Position numbers and translations under genes: made by a program | From: Candidatus Hydrogenedentota bacterium | GTDB lineage: Bacteria; Hydrogenedentota; Hydrogenedentia; Hydrogenedentales; SLHB01 | Length of the DNA stretch: 44,113 nucleotides | Assembly (NCBI GenBank): GCA_016215105.1 | Contig: JACRLJ010000119.1 | Span: 1-44,113, forward strand | Reading direction: 5' to 3' | In this document: piece by piece, positions 13,202-21,977 of the stretch | Layout: each line of letters starts with the position of its first letter | Numbering within the stretch: position 1 is the first letter of the stretch | Notes under the pieces: model-generated | Databases searched by the model: none | Told to the model about the DNA's origin: nothing | Seen by the model: only the letters and a program-made list of their open reading frames with translations

Positions 13202-13795
13202 ATGCAATTCGATGATGCTCAGCTGGTTTCCCGGTGCTTGGAAGGCGATACCAGTGCCTATGGCACGCTCGTAAAGCGCTATCAGGGCGCGGTGTACGGA
13301 ACCGCCTACTTCTATGCCGGACGTTACGGCGCGGCGGAAGACATCGCCCAAGATGCCTTTATGGCGGCGTACCAAAACCTTCGCTGGCTTCAGGACCCGA
13401 GCCGGTTTGGGCCGTGGCTCAAGTCAATCGCCTGCCGGACGGCGGCCAATTGGCTTCGCCGACACGGTAAACGCCTCAATAGTGAAACGCCGCTGCCGTT
13501 TCGGCGCACGATTTCGATTGAGGACGCCCGTGAAAGCCCGCGGGGAACGCTGGAACGTGGTGAGCGGTACGAGCGTGTTCAGATGGCGATTGACTCGCTG
13601 CCAGAGCGTTACCGGCTTCCCGTTGTCCTGCGCTACTTGCAGGAGTTGTCATACGACGAAATTGCTGATTTTACCGGTGAGAGCCGTGATGAAGTTCGCG
13701 GTGTACTCCACCGCGCGGGCCGCCAGTTACGTGAATTGCTGGCCGACATGGATGAATCGGAGGGAAGCGCCAAGTGGCATCCTGCACGCAAATAG
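13202..13795 (+). CDS. ECF-type RNA polymerase sigma factor
   Basis: Extracytoplasmic-function sigma factor, 197 residues. Region 2 covers about residues 8-80 (LVKRYQGAVYGTAYFYAG, then EDIAQDAFMAAYQNL with the core-binding acidic patch, then FGPWLKSIACRTAANWLRR). A linker follows, and region 4 covers about 120-180 (LPERYRLPVVLRYLQELSYDEIADFTGESRDEVRGVLHRA), the -35-binding helix-turn-helix. Both domains are complete. It starts at ATG 13202, with AAAGGGATG about a dozen bases upstream. Its last 22 bases overlap the gene for its probable anti-sigma factor, the usual arrangement for membrane-held ECF factors. The 171-base spacer upstream is the likely site of its promoter, but I cannot identify a clear box. 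Confidence 0.93.
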   Translation: MQFDDAQLVSRCLEGDTSAYGTLVKRYQGAVYGTAYFYAGRYGAAEDIAQDAFMAAYQNLRWLQDPSRFGPWLKSIACRTAANWLRRHGKRLNSETPLPFRRTISIEDARESPRGTLERGERYERVQMAIDSLPERYRLPVVLRYLQELSYDEIADFTGESRDEVRGVLHRAGRQLRELLADMDESEGSAKWHPARK

Positions 13796-15060
13796 AAGGC
13801 CTTCTCCAGGCATATATTGATGGCGAGTTAGGTCAATCTGACCGCATCATTCTTGATCGCCACGTCAATGAATGCCCGGTCTGCGCTGCGCTCTTTACAA
13901 GGCACCAACGCGCATCCGCCATCATGTTTGAAGTGTTCGCCGAGGATCGTCTATTTCGGGATTTGTCTCCCGCAGTTCTTGAGAATCTTCCGGAAATGCA
14001 AATGCCAAAGCAGGACATGGAAGGCATTAACTGGCGGGTAAAGCACCCTGCCAATTGGTCGTCTCCAATAACCCGTTTCGTGCCTGTTGGAGTACTTGCG
14101 GTATTGGTCGTCCTGTTCTTCATCATCCGGGAACACTGGCCCGCGCCGTTGCCCAGCGAGAGCGTTATCGGCATGATCACCCATGTCGGCGGCTCTCCAA
14201 CGAAGCTTTCCGGCGCCGCGGCAAGGTCGGAAGAGTGCGCCCTCGAAGGATTCGTCAACCGGGGTGATCGTTATATTACTGGCAAGGAGTCAACGCTCAT
14301 CCTCTCTATGCTTGGCCCGACGCAGCTCAAGCTCAGTGAGAACAGCCACCTTAAGGTGGAAACAGATCGGCGATTGTCGTTGGAAGAGGGTGAACTCTGG
14401 CTGGATATTGGAGGCGAGGCCAACCCGTTCAAAGTGCTAACGCCAAACGGTGAAGTCACTGTCTTTGGGACCTCGTTCGATGTGCGCGTAACCAAGAACG
14501 AAACCACCGTCACGGTAAAGCGCGGTAATGTCACCGCGGAAAATGCGCTGAATGTCCGTAGCCTCGTTGCGGGCGACCAAGTGGTGCTGCCCGCGACCGG
14601 AGAGGTGCCCCCTGTTCACGCCGTTGATGTCGTGGCGGTCACGAAATGGGCGGACTTACTCAGCCCTGAGGAGCGCGCAACAACGGCATTCGACTACTTT
14701 CTTAAGCGGTTTGGATCACAGACCGAGCTTACAGGGAGAGCTGTTTTTCTATTCAACACCCAACGCGACGACGGCGCGCCGATGGCCGTGAAATCCATTG
14801 AACTGTCCTGGAATCCCGACTCAAACTCGGCGCATCACTGCGGATACACCGTGTATGTGTTCGACGACGCAAGCCGCGTGCTCTTCCGGGAACGGATCGA
14901 CGCAAGCGTCTTCAACGATCACTCGCTGCGCTCCATCGAGATCCCAGTTCCGGGAAAGCCAATAAAGGGCGTGAAGCAGTTGTCCGTACGGTTGGTGCCT
15001 GATTACCGCTCGGGCGAGATTCAGACGTCGTTTGACAAAGTCACCGCGTCCGTTAGCTGA
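13774..15060 (+). CDS. Membrane anti-sigma factor with zinc-finger and FecR-type domains
   Basis: Likely inhibitor and sensor for the sigma factor encoded just before it. The 428-residue protein starts with a ZAS-type anti-sigma domain: Cys4 and His30, Cys34, Cys37 (HxxxCxxC) in the cytoplasm. One membrane helix follows at about 102-118. The periplasmic part contains a FecR-like region (about 130-280) with the typical LSLEEGELWLDI, PNGEVTVFGTSFDVR and TVKRGNVTAEN, then about 140 residues I do not recognise, beta-rich. Classical FecR systems sit beside a TonB-dependent receptor; none is here. Starts with GTG at 13774 inside the sigma gene (22-base overlap). Followed by 1.25 kb without a convincing gene. 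Confidence 0.85.
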   Translation: MASCTQIEGLLQAYIDGELGQSDRIILDRHVNECPVCAALFTRHQRASAIMFEVFAEDRLFRDLSPAVLENLPEMQMPKQDMEGINWRVKHPANWSSPITRFVPVGVLAVLVVLFFIIREHWPAPLPSESVIGMITHVGGSPTKLSGAAARSEECALEGFVNRGDRYITGKESTLILSMLGPTQLKLSENSHLKVETDRRLSLEEGELWLDIGGEANPFKVLTPNGEVTVFGTSFDVRVTKNETTVTVKRGNVTAENALNVRSLVAGDQVVLPATGEVPPVHAVDVVAVTKWADLLSPEERATTAFDYFLKRFGSQTELTGRAVFLFNTQRDDGAPMAVKSIELSWNPDSNSAHHCGYTVYVFDDASRVLFRERIDASVFNDHSLRSIEIPVPGKPIKGVKQLSVRLVPDYRSGEIQTSFDKVTASVS

Positions 15061-16306: not shown

Positions 16307-18352
16307 ATGGGTCGCCACCTGAGAACGATGGTTCTTGCCGCCACCGCCGCCATATCGCTGATAGTATTCTGCAGCCGATCGGCGCGAGCCGAGGAAGTTC
16401 CTGACGCGCTTCGCAGCGCGGTTGAGAACGCGGTAGCCAAGGTCAAACCCGCTTTGGTCCGCATACACGTTGTATTCGTCGAATATAACGATGGACGCGA
16501 GGTAAAATTTCAAGCGTCAGGCAGCGGCGCGGTGATCGGCAAAGAAGGTTACGTCATTACGAATCACCACGTGGCCGGACATGCCACCCGAATCCAGTGT
16601 ACTTTCTCAAACAAGGAGGAGATGGAGGCGGATCTGGTTGGCACCGATGCGTTGACGGATATTTCGGTGTTGAAATTGAGGCCTGACTCCCCTCGTGACT
16701 TTCCGGTTGCGGAGTTCGGTGACTCATCCAGAGTTCTTGTCGGCGACAACGTATTGGCGATGGGGAGCCCCATGGCCCTGTCCCAAAGTGTTACTCTCGG
16801 CATTGTCAGCAATACGGAAATGATCATGCCGAAGATGATGCAGTGGCGGTTCACGCTGGATGGGGAAGATGTGGGCTCAATCGTGCGCTGGATTGGCCAT
16901 GACGCTGCAATCTATCCGGGCAATTCCGGCGGTCCATTGGTTAATCTCAACGGACAAATTATCGGTATCAACGAGATCGACCTCGCACTGAGCGGCGCGA
17001 TTCCGGGAAATCTCGCTAATACGGTTGCCCAGGAGATCATCAAGAACGGCCGTGTAAAGCGCAGTTGGCTTGGGCTCGAAATACAGCCCTTGCTGAAACA
17101 TTCGAAAATCGATCACGGAGTCTTGGTCAGCGGTACGATGAAGGGTTCGCCCGCAGACAAAGCGGGCATCCAGTCTGGAGACATCATAGTTCGTCTGGCA
17201 GGCAAAGATGTGAACATACACTTCGACGAAGAGAAACCCGGATTCAACCGCATGGTAGCCGATCTCCCCATTGGCCAGGAGATCGAAGTGGCGATCCTGC
17301 GTGACGGCAAGGAGATTCCCCTGAAGGTCGCCACGGCGGAGCGTGAGGAAGCCAGCCCCAAACAGTCGGAGCTCAAGAAATGGGGAATCACCGGCCGCAA
17401 TATTTCGTTCTTCATCGCCAAGGAAATGAAACTCGACAGCCAGGAGGGCGTTCTGATCACTTCGGTTAGCCCGGGAGGACCGGCCGGTGACGCGAAGCCC
17501 AAACTAACGCAAGATGATGTCGTTCATGATGTCGGCGGGACTCCCATTAAGAATGTGAAAGAATTGTCCGAATTGACCGCGAAACTTACCGAGGGAAAGA
17601 AGGACCCTGTGCCGACGCTCATTGGATTTACTCGGGACACCGAGAAACTCGTGACAGTCGTCAAAATTGGGATCAAAGATTTCGACGATCCCGGCCTCGA
17701 GGTCCGCAAGGCGTGGCTTCCCATCAAGTATCAGGTGATTACAAAAGATATCGCCGAGCAACTGGGATTTCCGGATAGGAAAGGATTCCGAATAACCGCC
17801 GTGTTTCCAGAAAGCGCCGCGGAGAGAGCCCAACTGAAAGTGGGTGACCTTATTGTCGCGGTTGACGGCGCCCCATTGACCGCCTCCGCTCCCGAACAAT
17901 TGGAAGAGCTTCCCGCGCTAATCCGCCAGTACAAAGTTGGCACAACGGCTGAACTCTCCATTATCCGCGGAAAGGAGCCGATGAAGGCGTCTATCGAGCT
18001 TCCGCAGGGTCCGCCTGAGAGCCGTGAGATGAAGAAGCATCAGGATACCGATTTCGAATTTACCGTACGTGACATCTCGCTGACGGACCAGGTCAGCCAG
18101 CAATGGCAGAAGGATCAGCACGGGGTCTTGGTCATCGAGATCAAACCCGGAGGATGGGCGGAACTCGGACGCATGAACGTCAGCGACTTGATCACCGACA
18201 TCGAGGGTACACCGATCAGCAGCGTGGATGGCTTGCAGTCCAAGATGAAGGAAATCGCCGCGGCTAAACCGCGTTCAGTCGTGCTGCGGGTTCTCCGTGG
18301 CGTACACACTCTCTTCCTGGAACTGGAGCCCAACTGGAGTACAAGCCCTTAG
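16307..18352 (+). CDS. Exported HtrA-like serine protease with four PDZ domains
   Basis: Periplasmic trypsin-fold protease of the Deg/HtrA type. 681 residues: a signal peptide (about 1-28, ending ARA), a protease domain (about 35-240) with an intact triad (His88 in TNHHV, Asp118 in LTDISVLKL, Ser207 in YPGNSGGPL), then four PDZ-like repeats at about 245-345, 355-450, 480-575 and 585-675, each with a recognisable GVLV/ITSVSPGGPA/VGDLI-type core. Four PDZ repeats are more than the one or two of classical DegP/DegS, so substrate recognition or assembly is likely elaborate. The ATG at 16307 has GAGGTAACTTGA before it (GAGG 8-9 bases away). A catalytically dead homologue follows after 19 bases and is probably co-expressed. 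The ECF sigma/anti-sigma pair lies upstream. Confidence 0.9.
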   Translation: MGRHLRTMVLAATAAISLIVFCSRSARAEEVPDALRSAVENAVAKVKPALVRIHVVFVEYNDGREVKFQASGSGAVIGKEGYVITNHHVAGHATRIQCTFSNKEEMEADLVGTDALTDISVLKLRPDSPRDFPVAEFGDSSRVLVGDNVLAMGSPMALSQSVTLGIVSNTEMIMPKMMQWRFTLDGEDVGSIVRWIGHDAAIYPGNSGGPLVNLNGQIIGINEIDLALSGAIPGNLANTVAQEIIKNGRVKRSWLGLEIQPLLKHSKIDHGVLVSGTMKGSPADKAGIQSGDIIVRLAGKDVNIHFDEEKPGFNRMVADLPIGQEIEVAILRDGKEIPLKVATAEREEASPKQSELKKWGITGRNISFFIAKEMKLDSQEGVLITSVSPGGPAGDAKPKLTQDDVVHDVGGTPIKNVKELSELTAKLTEGKKDPVPTLIGFTRDTEKLVTVVKIGIKDFDDPGLEVRKAWLPIKYQVITKDIAEQLGFPDRKGFRITAVFPESAAERAQLKVGDLIVAVDGAPLTASAPEQLEELPALIRQYKVGTTAELSIIRGKEPMKASIELPQGPPESREMKKHQDTDFEFTVRDISLTDQVSQQWQKDQHGVLVIEIKPGGWAELGRMNVSDLITDIEGTPISSVDGLQSKMKEIAAAKPRSVVLRVLRGVHTLFLELEPNWSTSP

Positions 18353-18371
18353 GGGTGGAAAGGCGTTTCGT

Positions 18372-19301
18372 ATGCTTACATTGACCAAACGGAGTGCGTT
18401 GGGAGCGGTCGCGGCGGCTGCGTTGGTGTTTTCTGCTGCCGCTGACGAGGCGGCCGTTGCGGGCCGCACCGTCTTGGATGCGCACAAGAACGCCGTCGTC
18501 ACGGTTTCCTTGGTTATCAAACAACAGTTTTCGATGGGAGGATCCGGATCGCAGGAACAGGAAGAAAAAGCCGAAGTCACCGGAACGGTCATCGATCCTT
18601 CCGGACTTACGGTCCTTTCACTGAGCCAAACCGATCCGTCAGCCCTCATCCAGAGCATGATGGGCGATATGACGGACGGCGGGGACATGAAGATTGATAG
18701 CACTCTTGCGGATGTCAAGATCATAACCGAGGACGGGAAGGAATTGGCCGCCAAAGTTGTGCTGCGCGACAAAGATCTCGATCTGGCTTTTATCCGTCCC
18801 ACGGAAAAACCCGCCGCTCCGCTTGCCTCAATCAACCTCAAAGAGTCCGGGACCCCTCAAATACTCGATCAAATCCTGGTGCTGAATCGCCTGGGCAAGG
18901 TAGCCAATCGCGCGTACGCGATGTCTGTTGACCGTGTTGAAGCCATCATCGCGAAGCCGCGCACGTTTTACGTTCCTGGCCGTGGTGAATCTACGGGCGC
19001 CTTGGGCTGCCCCGCGTTTACGATTGACGGCAAGATTGTCGGTGTCGCCTTGCTGCGCACCATCCCCGGCGGACTGAGTGGCGGCGGCATGATGAGCATG
19101 ATGGGCGGCGGACATGACAGCGTGTTGCCGGTTATTCTGCCCGCGGCCGACATCCTAGAGGCCGGCCAGCAAGCCCCCGCGGCGGCGGACGTCAAGGACG
19201 AGCCCAAGCCAAAGCCTGAACCGGCGCCAGCAGCCGCTCCATCATCGAATTCGGTCACTATTCCCGCGACTCCTGCCCCGCCGACGCCCAAGACGCCGTA
19301 G
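18372..19301 (+). CDS. Exported HtrA-like pseudoprotease (catalytic His and Ser lost)
   Basis: Homologue of the protease domain of the preceding gene, without its chemistry. 309 residues: a signal peptide (about 1-24, ending SAAA), a trypsin-fold region (about 30-270), a Gly/Met-rich loop near 237-250 and a Pro/Ala/Lys-rich tail. Where active relatives have a TNAHV-type motif this one has VLSLSQ, so His is lost. Where they have GNSGGP it has GALGCP, so Ser is lost. The Asp-bearing strand DLDLAFI remains. No PDZ domain is visible. It is therefore likely a regulator, chaperone or partner of the active protease rather than an enzyme. I chose ATG 18372 (after GGGGTGGAAAGG) over an upstream frame opening that overlaps the previous gene. 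A strong terminator follows. Confidence 0.8.
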   Translation: MLTLTKRSALGAVAAAALVFSAAADEAAVAGRTVLDAHKNAVVTVSLVIKQQFSMGGSGSQEQEEKAEVTGTVIDPSGLTVLSLSQTDPSALIQSMMGDMTDGGDMKIDSTLADVKIITEDGKELAAKVVLRDKDLDLAFIRPTEKPAAPLASINLKESGTPQILDQILVLNRLGKVANRAYAMSVDRVEAIIAKPRTFYVPGRGESTGALGCPAFTIDGKIVGVALLRTIPGGLSGGGMMSMMGGGHDSVLPVILPAADILEAGQQAPAAADVKDEPKPKPEPAPAAAPSSNSVTIPATPAPPTPKTP

Positions 19302-19768: not shown

Positions 19769-20518
19769 ATGAGCGGGGCTAGTCCGCTTGCGGGAAAGAC
19801 CGCGCTCGTCACCGGCGCCGCCAAGCGAATCGGCCACGCCGTGGCCCTCGAGTTGGCGCGAAATGGCGTCAATGTCGTCGTGCATTACCGCCACTCATCT
19901 GAGTACGCATTGGAGACGGCCGACGCGATTCGCGCGACGGGAGTGCGCACTTGGACCCTTTCGGCGGACTTGGCCGATCCAGACGCCGCAGCCGGTCTGA
20001 TGTCCCGGGCTGTCAAGACCGCAGGACCAATCGACATTCTTGTGAATAGCGCTTCCGCGTTTCCGGAAGATACGTTGAGGGATTTCTCGCTGGACCGACT
20101 GCGCCAGTCGATTGCGGTGAATGCCTTTGCGCCTCTCGTGCTGTCGAGGCGTTTCGCGTCGCAAGATCGGGAGGGCGCTATCATCAATTTCCTCGATGCG
20201 CGCATGAACGATTACGACCGAGGCCACGTTTCGTATCAACTCGCCAAACAAATGCTTGCTTCCCTTACGGGAATGATGGCCAATGAGTTCGCCCCGGCGA
20301 TTCGCGTCAACGCCGTCGCGCCAGGACTCGTGCTGCCGCCCGAAGGCAAAGACGACGCCTACCTCCATTCGTTGGCGCACACCAATCCGCTGAACGCGGT
20401 GGGTACCGTCGCCGAGGTCACCGATGCCGTGTTATTCCTATTGCGTAGCCCTTTCGTCACCGGCCAAGTCATCTATGTGGACGGGGGACGACACCTGAGG
20501 AGCAGTGTGCATGTCTGA
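19769..20518 (+). CDS. Short-chain dehydrogenase, pteridine-reductase-like
   Basis: NADPH-dependent reductase of the SDR family, 249 residues. Visible: the nucleotide loop TGAAKRIG (about 14-21), VVVHYRHSS, a DILVNSAS strand, the catalytic Tyr and Lys in SYQLAK and a final VIYVDGGRHL. TGxxxRIG together with VVHYxxS is typical of pteridine reductases and FolM (dihydromonapterin reductase). The overlap with folB, folK and folE supports a role in reducing pterins or dihydrofolate. It could replace a classical dihydrofolate reductase, which I do not see here. The ATG at 19769 has GAGGAGC about 9 bases upstream. It is the first gene of the operon and overlaps folB by 8 bases. Confidence 0.85.
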   Translation: MSGASPLAGKTALVTGAAKRIGHAVALELARNGVNVVVHYRHSSEYALETADAIRATGVRTWTLSADLADPDAAAGLMSRAVKTAGPIDILVNSASAFPEDTLRDFSLDRLRQSIAVNAFAPLVLSRRFASQDREGAIINFLDARMNDYDRGHVSYQLAKQMLASLTGMMANEFAPAIRVNAVAPGLVLPPEGKDDAYLHSLAHTNPLNAVGTVAEVTDAVLFLLRSPFVTGQVIYVDGGRHLRSSVHV

Positions 20519-20888
20519 TCATTCGCTCGACACGATCTATATTCGTGATTTGCTGTTGCGCTGCGTCCTCGGCGTGAATCCGGAAGAGCGCGGACAGCGC
20601 CAGGACGTCGTGGTCAATATAACGTTGCGCGCCAATCTAGGCGAGGCATGCGCGAGTGATCGAATTGAAGATACGATTGACTACAAGACCCTGAAAAAGC
20701 GCGTTATGGCCATGGTGGAAGGTTCCGCGTATTTCCTTGTTGAACGGCTTGCGCAACGCATTGCAGAAGTCTGCCTCGACGATCCCCGCGTTATGTCCGT
20801 GGACGTCGTCGTTGACAAACCGGGCGCGCTCCGTTTTGCGCGCAGCGTCGCGGTCGGCGTTTCTCGAGGACGCGGCGGTCATGCGTGA
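20511..20888 (+). CDS. folB: Dihydroneopterin aldolase
   Basis: Splits 7,8-dihydroneopterin to 6-hydroxymethyl-dihydropterin and glycolaldehyde in folate synthesis. 125 residues, the usual single tunnel-fold domain. Visible: IYIRDLLLRCVLGVNPEER (Glu of the pterin site), the Tyr in DTIDYKTL, and the catalytic Lys in VDKPGALRFA. The ATG at 20511 follows GAGGAGC by about 8 bases; an in-frame GTG two codons earlier (20505) is less likely. It overlaps the SDR gene by 8 bases (ATGTCTGA) and folK by 8 bases (ATGCGTGA), so translation is coupled along the operon. Confidence 0.94.
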   Translation: MSDHSLDTIYIRDLLLRCVLGVNPEERGQRQDVVVNITLRANLGEACASDRIEDTIDYKTLKKRVMAMVEGSAYFLVERLAQRIAEVCLDDPRVMSVDVVVDKPGALRFARSVAVGVSRGRGGHA

Positions 20889-21414
20889 GCGCAGCGTACT
20901 ACAACGTGTCTTCATTTCGATTGGCTCGAACATCGAGCCGGAGTCGAATATTGTCAAGGGTCTCGGATTGCTTTCCAGCTATGTCACCATAAACGCGGTC
21001 TCGACTGTTTTCCGAACAGACCCAATTGGTCCGGGCGGCGGACCGCCCTTCCTTAATGGCGTGTTCGCCATCACGACTCAGACGGGCCCGCGCGCGCTGA
21101 AATACCGCGTATTGCGTTCCATTGAAGACCGTCTTGGACGGATTCGCACGGACGACCGCTATGCGCCGAGAGTGATTGACTTGGATATTCTGCTCTACGA
21201 AAATGAGATGATCGATGAGCCCGGCTTGAAGATCCCGGACCCGGATCTCGCCGACAGGCCATTTCTCATCGAGGCTTTGCTCGAGATCGAGCCCGGCCTC
21301 GTGCTGCCCGGGACTCAGGCGCCGCTCGCGATGCTTCTTCCAGAGAGTGAAGCCCGCTCCTATACGCCTGAACACGAATTTACAACGCAACTACGCCAGA
21401 GGTTAGCCCAATGA
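20881..21414 (+). CDS. folK: 6-hydroxymethyl-7,8-dihydropterin pyrophosphokinase
   Basis: Transfers pyrophosphate from ATP to hydroxymethyl-dihydropterin, preparing it for joining to p-aminobenzoate. 177 residues. Visible: [12 protein letters not shown], the VFRTDPIGP segment with FLNGV, then the signature [16 protein letters not shown] with the metal-binding Asp pair, and [19 protein letters not shown]. The start at ATG 20881 lies inside the folB end. Its stop overlaps folE by 4 bases (ATGA). FolP, the next enzyme, is not in the window. Confidence 0.95.
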
Positions 21415-21977
21415 ATCAGGAACGCGTCGCGCATCTTGTGCGAGAACTATTGCTTGAAATCGGAGAAGATCCCGACCGCGAGGGTCTGCTCAAGACACCA
21501 CAGCGCGTCGCGCAGGCATACGAGTACCTTACCTCCGGGTATGCGCTATCCACTGAGGAAGTGGTGAATGGCGCAATATTCGAATCGCACTCCAACAACA
21601 TGATCATCTCCCGCGATATTGAAGTGTACAGTTTGTGCGAACACCACATGTTGCCGTTCCTGGGCCGCTGTCACATCGGGTACATCCCGCGGAAGAAAGT
21701 GCTGGGACTGAGCAAGCTGTCCCGCATCGTGGATTGCTTCGCTCGCCGCCTCCAGATTCAGGAGCGATTGACGGCGCAGATTGCGGAAGACCTGATGTCG
21801 GCAACCGAGGCCGAAGGGGTCGGCGTCGTAATGGAATGCAAGCATTTGTGCATGATGATGCGCGGCGTCGAGAAGCAGAACTCGGTCATGGTGACTTCGT
21901 CGGTTCTCGGAAGCTTTCTTGACGAGGAAGCGACACGACTGGAATTCCTCAATCTGATCGGCCCGCGTCATTCCTGA
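21411..21977 (+). CDS. folE: GTP cyclohydrolase I
   Basis: First committed step from GTP to pterins, giving dihydroneopterin triphosphate. 188 residues of the zinc-dependent FolE1 type. Visible: [15 protein letters not shown] near the start, the zinc ligands in CEHHMLPF (Cys and His) and the later Cys in [24 protein letters not shown] and the QERLT stretch. The missing upstream member of the branch is a dihydroneopterin triphosphate pyrophosphatase, often unlinked. Last gene of the pterin operon; no terminator is visible in the following 50 bases. Confidence 0.96.

Follow-up and report, generated by a model that had tools for sequence, protein, structure and literature searches.

The window analysed here, a stretch of 44,113 nucleotides from a metagenome-assembled genome (MAG) of Candidatus Hydrogenedentota (contig JACRLJ010000119.1), carries on its plus strand the gene of an HtrA/Do-type serine protease with an intact catalytic triad (P1; positions 16307..18352, 681 residues). 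The gene of an HtrA-type pseudoprotease (P2; 18372..19301, 309 residues, same strand) starts 19 bases past the stop codon of P1. P2 is an ancient pseudoenzyme maintained by purifying selection, and a second, homologous pair of an active and a dead HtrA protein (Q1 and Q2), which is new here, is encoded in the same genome. It is proposed, at roughly even odds (about 0.5), that P2 and Q2 serve the active HtrA proteases as non-catalytic partners, probably by modulating or scaffolding them.

An active protease followed by a dead homologue

P1 has a signal-like N terminus (signal peptides were assigned by eye), a protease domain (16520..16969) and four PDZ domains. In Pfam, residues 72-221 matched Trypsin_2 with an E-value of 1.9e-28, and all four PDZ stretches (PDZ1-PDZ2, 17042..17641; PDZ3-PDZ4, 17702..18346) were over the cut-off. 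His88 (16568-16570), Asp118 (16658-16660) and Ser207 (16925-16927) were invariant in an alignment of 25 relatives, and the His-Asp-Ser triad with the GNSGGP motif was present in 32 of 32 P1 relatives. An earlier note, made from the sequence alone, had described P1 in the same way, with these three residues and four PDZ domains. Of all models, the Do-family model TIGR02037 gave the best score with P1 (391.8 bits), but its cut-off of 416.2 was not reached; therefore, P1 is Do-like and not a certified member of the Do family.

P2 consists of one protease domain and a Pro-rich tail and has no PDZ domain; no second Pfam domain was found in it. The earlier note had claimed that P2 lost the catalytic His and Ser, and the alignment showed Ser85 (18624-18626) and Leu211 (19002-19004) at these positions; it can be added that Asp137 (18780-18782) is kept. 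In 50 P2 sequences, His was always absent from the catalytic position and Asp was always kept, whereas the Ser column held Leu, Gln, Val, Met and other residues. The lone Ser (1/50) lay outside any GxSG motif, none of the 50 sequences contained a GxSG[G/S/A]P motif, and no relative of P2 with an intact triad was encountered (0/50). Annotation as a "trypsin-like peptidase" can thus conceal a non-enzyme of this kind.

Pairwise BLASTP found no significant similarity between P2 and P1. Nevertheless, P2 passed the Trypsin_2 cut-off of Pfam (31.8 versus 27.6 bits), 26 of 27 P2 relatives matched this family too, and the P2 and P1 families matched each other in a profile-profile comparison (E 8.7e-8). 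When P2 models were submitted to Foldseek, the best 50 rows were all HtrA-type protease domains, aligned chiefly over the first beta-barrel; the models (AlphaFold2, two input sequences) were of low confidence, with a mean predicted local distance difference test (pLDDT) score of 42 and 47 and a second barrel without confidence. Judged from these comparisons, the protease fold of P2 appears genuine but remote from that of P1, as the earlier note had supposed for the fold; the signal peptide that it also ascribed to P2 was judged by eye. RDxDxD and KPRxxY are strongly conserved motifs of the P2 family. Residues 234-250 (19071-19121) form a Met/Gly-rich loop, GGGMMSMMGGG, at the site of the L2 specificity loop of HtrA, and the Met content of the P2 family is approximately twice that of P1.

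Distribution was counted in 68 Hydrogenedentota genomes. P2 was found in 65 of these, once as an edge fragment, and was missing from G045, G058 and G065; P1 was found in 63. The co-occurrence of the two genes, which the earlier note had put forward as a check, was uninformative because both are nearly universal in the phylum. Constraint was compared in four pairs of closely related genomes that have both genes, and in one pair of solo P2 genes. Substitutions in P2 were overwhelmingly silent in these pairs, and the ratio of nonsynonymous to synonymous substitution rates (dN/dS) was 0.04-0.18 where synonymous change was unsaturated; for P1, these genome pairs gave 0.05-0.12. Because dN/dS was as low as that of P1, P2 is maintained and not decaying. 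A single-sequence scan of genome contigs matched one relative, a scan of viral sequences gave no relatives, and no match to P2 was found in a plasmid collection.

A second pair built from the same domains

The second pair is located on contig C160 of the source genome (G000), where Q1, an active HtrA of 472 residues with a lipobox-like start, is directly followed by Q2 (481 residues), which contains a protease domain and two PDZ domains. In 20 Q2 sequences, the protease domain kept Asp in 20 and His in 18, and Ser was present in none, being replaced by Val, Ile or Leu in all 20. Q1 and Q2 were adjacent in all 58 genomes that had both on one contig. The existence of this second adjacent pair makes a working active/dead pair more likely. 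Both dead proteins are retained across nearly the whole phylum; therefore, P2 and Q2 probably do non-cutting work, for example, steering the active enzymes. In 11 of 20 loci (L081:7043-7678, as an example, and L083, L086, L087, L090, L091, L093, L095, L096, L097 and L100), Q2 is followed by the gene of a small lipoprotein that matches TPR weakly and is likely the third member of the Q operon.

The kinship of the four proteins was studied with trees and profiles. In the protease-domain tree, in which the outgroup fragments taken from L004 and L007 appear to be off-domain or in the wrong frame and the remaining outgroups have long branches, P2 and Q2 formed one clade apart from P1 and Q1 (support 95/92). 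The P2 and Q2 profiles matched each other with an E-value of 7.7e-16, and both proteins have the motif KPRTxY before the Ser loop. Constraining P1 and P2 to one clade was rejected (p 0.011); the same constraint on Q1 and Q2 was not clearly rejected (p 0.087).

In the tandem-PDZ tree, PDZ3-PDZ4 of P1 were sister to both PDZ domains of Q2, and PDZ1-PDZ2 of P1 were sister to those of Q1 (100/98). In the profile comparison, the Q2 tail aligned to the last two PDZ domains of P1 with an E-value of 2.3e-40, and the two tails descend from one source. Because both analyses group these tails, the pairs can be described as the same six domains cut differently, as (protease-PDZ1-PDZ2)+(dead protease-PDZ3-PDZ4) in Q and as (protease-PDZ1-PDZ2-PDZ3-PDZ4)+(dead protease) in P. 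On this sequence evidence, the active and dead partners have had their domains recombined as one set. Such traffic between active and dead genes would be expected if both act in one assembly.

Linkage of P1 and P2 and possible functions

The earlier note had placed P2 19 bases downstream of P1 with one common terminator. This layout was reproduced: a strong, terminator-like hairpin with a 16-pair stem followed by TTTTT is located on the plus strand 3' of P2 (19363..19399), and none was found between the two genes. Linkage in relatives was counted in draft MAGs, with contig breaks in G008 and G049. P1 adjoins P2 in 40 genomes, namely all resolvable ones of families f1, f3, f4, f8, f9 and f11.

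Several observations weigh against a partnership of P1 and P2. In 19 genomes (families f2, f6, f7 and f10), both genes are present but unlinked, and the unlinked families are mostly early-branching in the P1 tree; hence, the conservation of the pair in relatives, which the earlier note had put forward as a check, held for the 40 genomes and failed for these 19. Of the idea of a working pair, the pseudoenzyme stood as real, old and under selection and was joined by Q1-Q2, whereas the linkage of P1 and P2 did not extend to these four families. Additionally, some genomes contain extra solo copies of P2. The P2+Q2 clade joins long branches and is therefore given moderate weight. Structure prediction from two sequences was of low confidence. 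Finally, with two of the three controls used in the mirror-tree analysis, the signal did not clearly exceed that of a neighbour gene. In favour of a partnership, the distances of P1 and P2 were still correlated after control for neighbour genes (partial r 0.45-0.66), a weak and only suggestive result.

The history of the linkage bears on these points. In the P1 tree with Q1 as the root, f6 and part of f10 diverged first, and in the P2 tree, most linked sequences were nested within solo ones. In f6 and f7, a short-chain dehydrogenase/reductase (SDR) gene, folB, folK and folE follow directly 3' of P1; in the window, the same genes (19769..21977, plus strand) lie 3' of P2, so that where the two genes are linked, P2 is placed between P1 and the folate genes that elsewhere adjoin it. 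Considering that the unlinked families are early, that linked P2 sequences are nested in solo ones and that P1 precedes the folate genes in f6 and f7, the linkage looks derived rather than ancestral; P2 was probably a separate gene that later settled behind P1, and some subsequent moves or losses are possible. A functional link survives this conclusion because a newly gained and long-kept adjacency is itself evidence for one. The solo P2 genes of f6 (L079, L080 and L132) have dxs, trigger factor and clpP as neighbours and lie on the strand opposite to these.

The usual picture of HtrA proteases is that of homo-oligomers. If P2 and Q2 are non-catalytic partners, P1, presumably secreted to the envelope, would cut or hold misfolded proteins there, and P2, with its protease fold and a retained P1-contacting surface, would become a subunit of mixed oligomers with it or act on it as an adaptor, thereby setting its assembly, activity or substrate choice; Q2 would play the same part for Q1. 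Physical contact of P1 and P2 and the direction of regulation are assumed in this scheme, as are the regulation of P1 by P2 and the envelope quality-control role suggested in the earlier note. A broader version, in which a phylum-wide hetero-oligomeric HtrA machine gives each active HtrA its own dead subunit, is tentative, with the odds somewhat against it. This machine would exist in two versions, which distribute the same set of an active protease, a dead protease and four PDZ domains over two chains in different ways, and would be a bacterial split counterpart of plant DEG7. If true, the phylum would have two dedicated dead partners, with PDZ tails common to active and dead genes, and mixed active/inactive HtrA assemblies in bacteria, as well as tuning of a protease-chaperone by a dead subunit, would become directly testable.

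According to the main rival explanation, which is considered rather unlikely, the protease fold of P2 has been repurposed for an independent binding role in the envelope (for a peptide, metal or cell-wall ligand), comparable to the metal binding of MamO, and P2 is co-expressed with P1 where linked but without contact. The unlinked loci and solo copies agree with it, as do the faster divergence of P2 (mean distance of approximately 0.93 versus 0.66 for P1) and the Met/Gly-rich loop in place of the L2 region. However, linkage to P1 arose later and was then kept in 40 genomes, Q2 stands beside Q1 wherever this can be read, and the P2 alignment contains no conserved His pair able to bind metal as in the pseudoprotease MamO. 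A role of P2 as an inhibitor or decoy, which would hold P1 in an inactive state and be degraded itself under stress, is quite improbable: neither an inhibitory loop nor a conserved cleavage site was seen in the P2 family alignment, and the C-terminal tail is variable across relatives and ends without a conserved hydrophobic PDZ ligand, although the operon-like unit with P2 second and closely spaced and the sigma/anti-sigma pair nearby in some relatives would fit. The view of P2 as a functionless, decaying duplicate of P1, for which the loss of two catalytic residues speaks, was rejected as having a negligible chance since it is contradicted by dN/dS, by near-universal presence in the phylum and by the conserved RDxDxD and KPRxxY motifs.

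Upstream of P1 by 1.2 kb, the gene of an extracytoplasmic function (ECF)-type sigma factor (13202..13795, plus strand) overlaps that of an anti-sigma-like protein whose zf-HC2, hydrophobic segment and FecR domain give it an RseA-like topology (13774..15060, plus strand). Several relatives have retained both genes in the vicinity of P1, among them f6 loci that branch early and lack P2; it is possible that P1 belongs to an envelope-stress regulon or has a DegS-like role. In genus g5 (L040, L043 and L044), P1 and P2 share a reading frame with one TAG codon between them, which is probably due to chance. The source genome contains 13 Trypsin_2 matches (at C104, C89, C46, C162, C18 and C33), some of them in long multi-domain frames of 921 and 1248 residues.

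Comparison with known systems

In the open-access literature, subscription journals being outside the scope, no description of HtrA pairs in Hydrogenedentota was found, and Trypsin_2/HtrA is the most specific curated assignment for P2 and Q2. The layout of P1, with a signal, a protease domain, PDZ domains and an intact triad, resembles that of DegP/DegQ of the Do family; the differences are four PDZ domains instead of two, the score below the TIGR02037 cut-off and the dead homologue alongside.

Two precedents for a non-catalytic partnership are MamE/MamO and plant DEG7. An active HtrA and an HtrA-like pseudoprotease in one bacterium are also known from MamE/MamO of magnetotactic bacteria, where MamO activates MamE proteolysis without catalysis and physical contact was not detected (PMC4794232). 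However, MamO combines a TauE transporter domain with metal-binding histidines and is encoded in the magnetosome gene island, whereas P2 is a lone domain without TauE or such histidines. No match of P2 to the MamO model NF040961 (NCBIfam) was listed, and Q2 scored 24.6 bits against a cut-off of 800. Membership in the MamE/MamO system was therefore rejected because NCBIfam scores were far under the cut-offs and the domains differ.

Plant Deg5/Deg8, a hetero-oligomer of two Deg proteases, neither of which is called inactive (PMC4877387), shows that one complex can contain two different Deg proteins; the Hydrogenedentota pairs differ in that one partner is dead. Plant DEG7 has the order PD-PDZ-PDZ-PDia-PDZ-PDZ (PD, protease domain; PDia, inactive protease domain) in a single polypeptide, and trimerisation involves its inactive domain (PMC3473262). 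Compared by domain content and order, Q1 followed by Q2 gives exactly this arrangement, but in two genes, and no uninterrupted open frame spanning both partners was seen in either pair; in P1/P2, moreover, the active partner bears all four PDZ domains, and the dead protease domain has none beside it. Thus, the P and Q pairs have the same domain content as DEG7 but differ from it in how the chains are organised.
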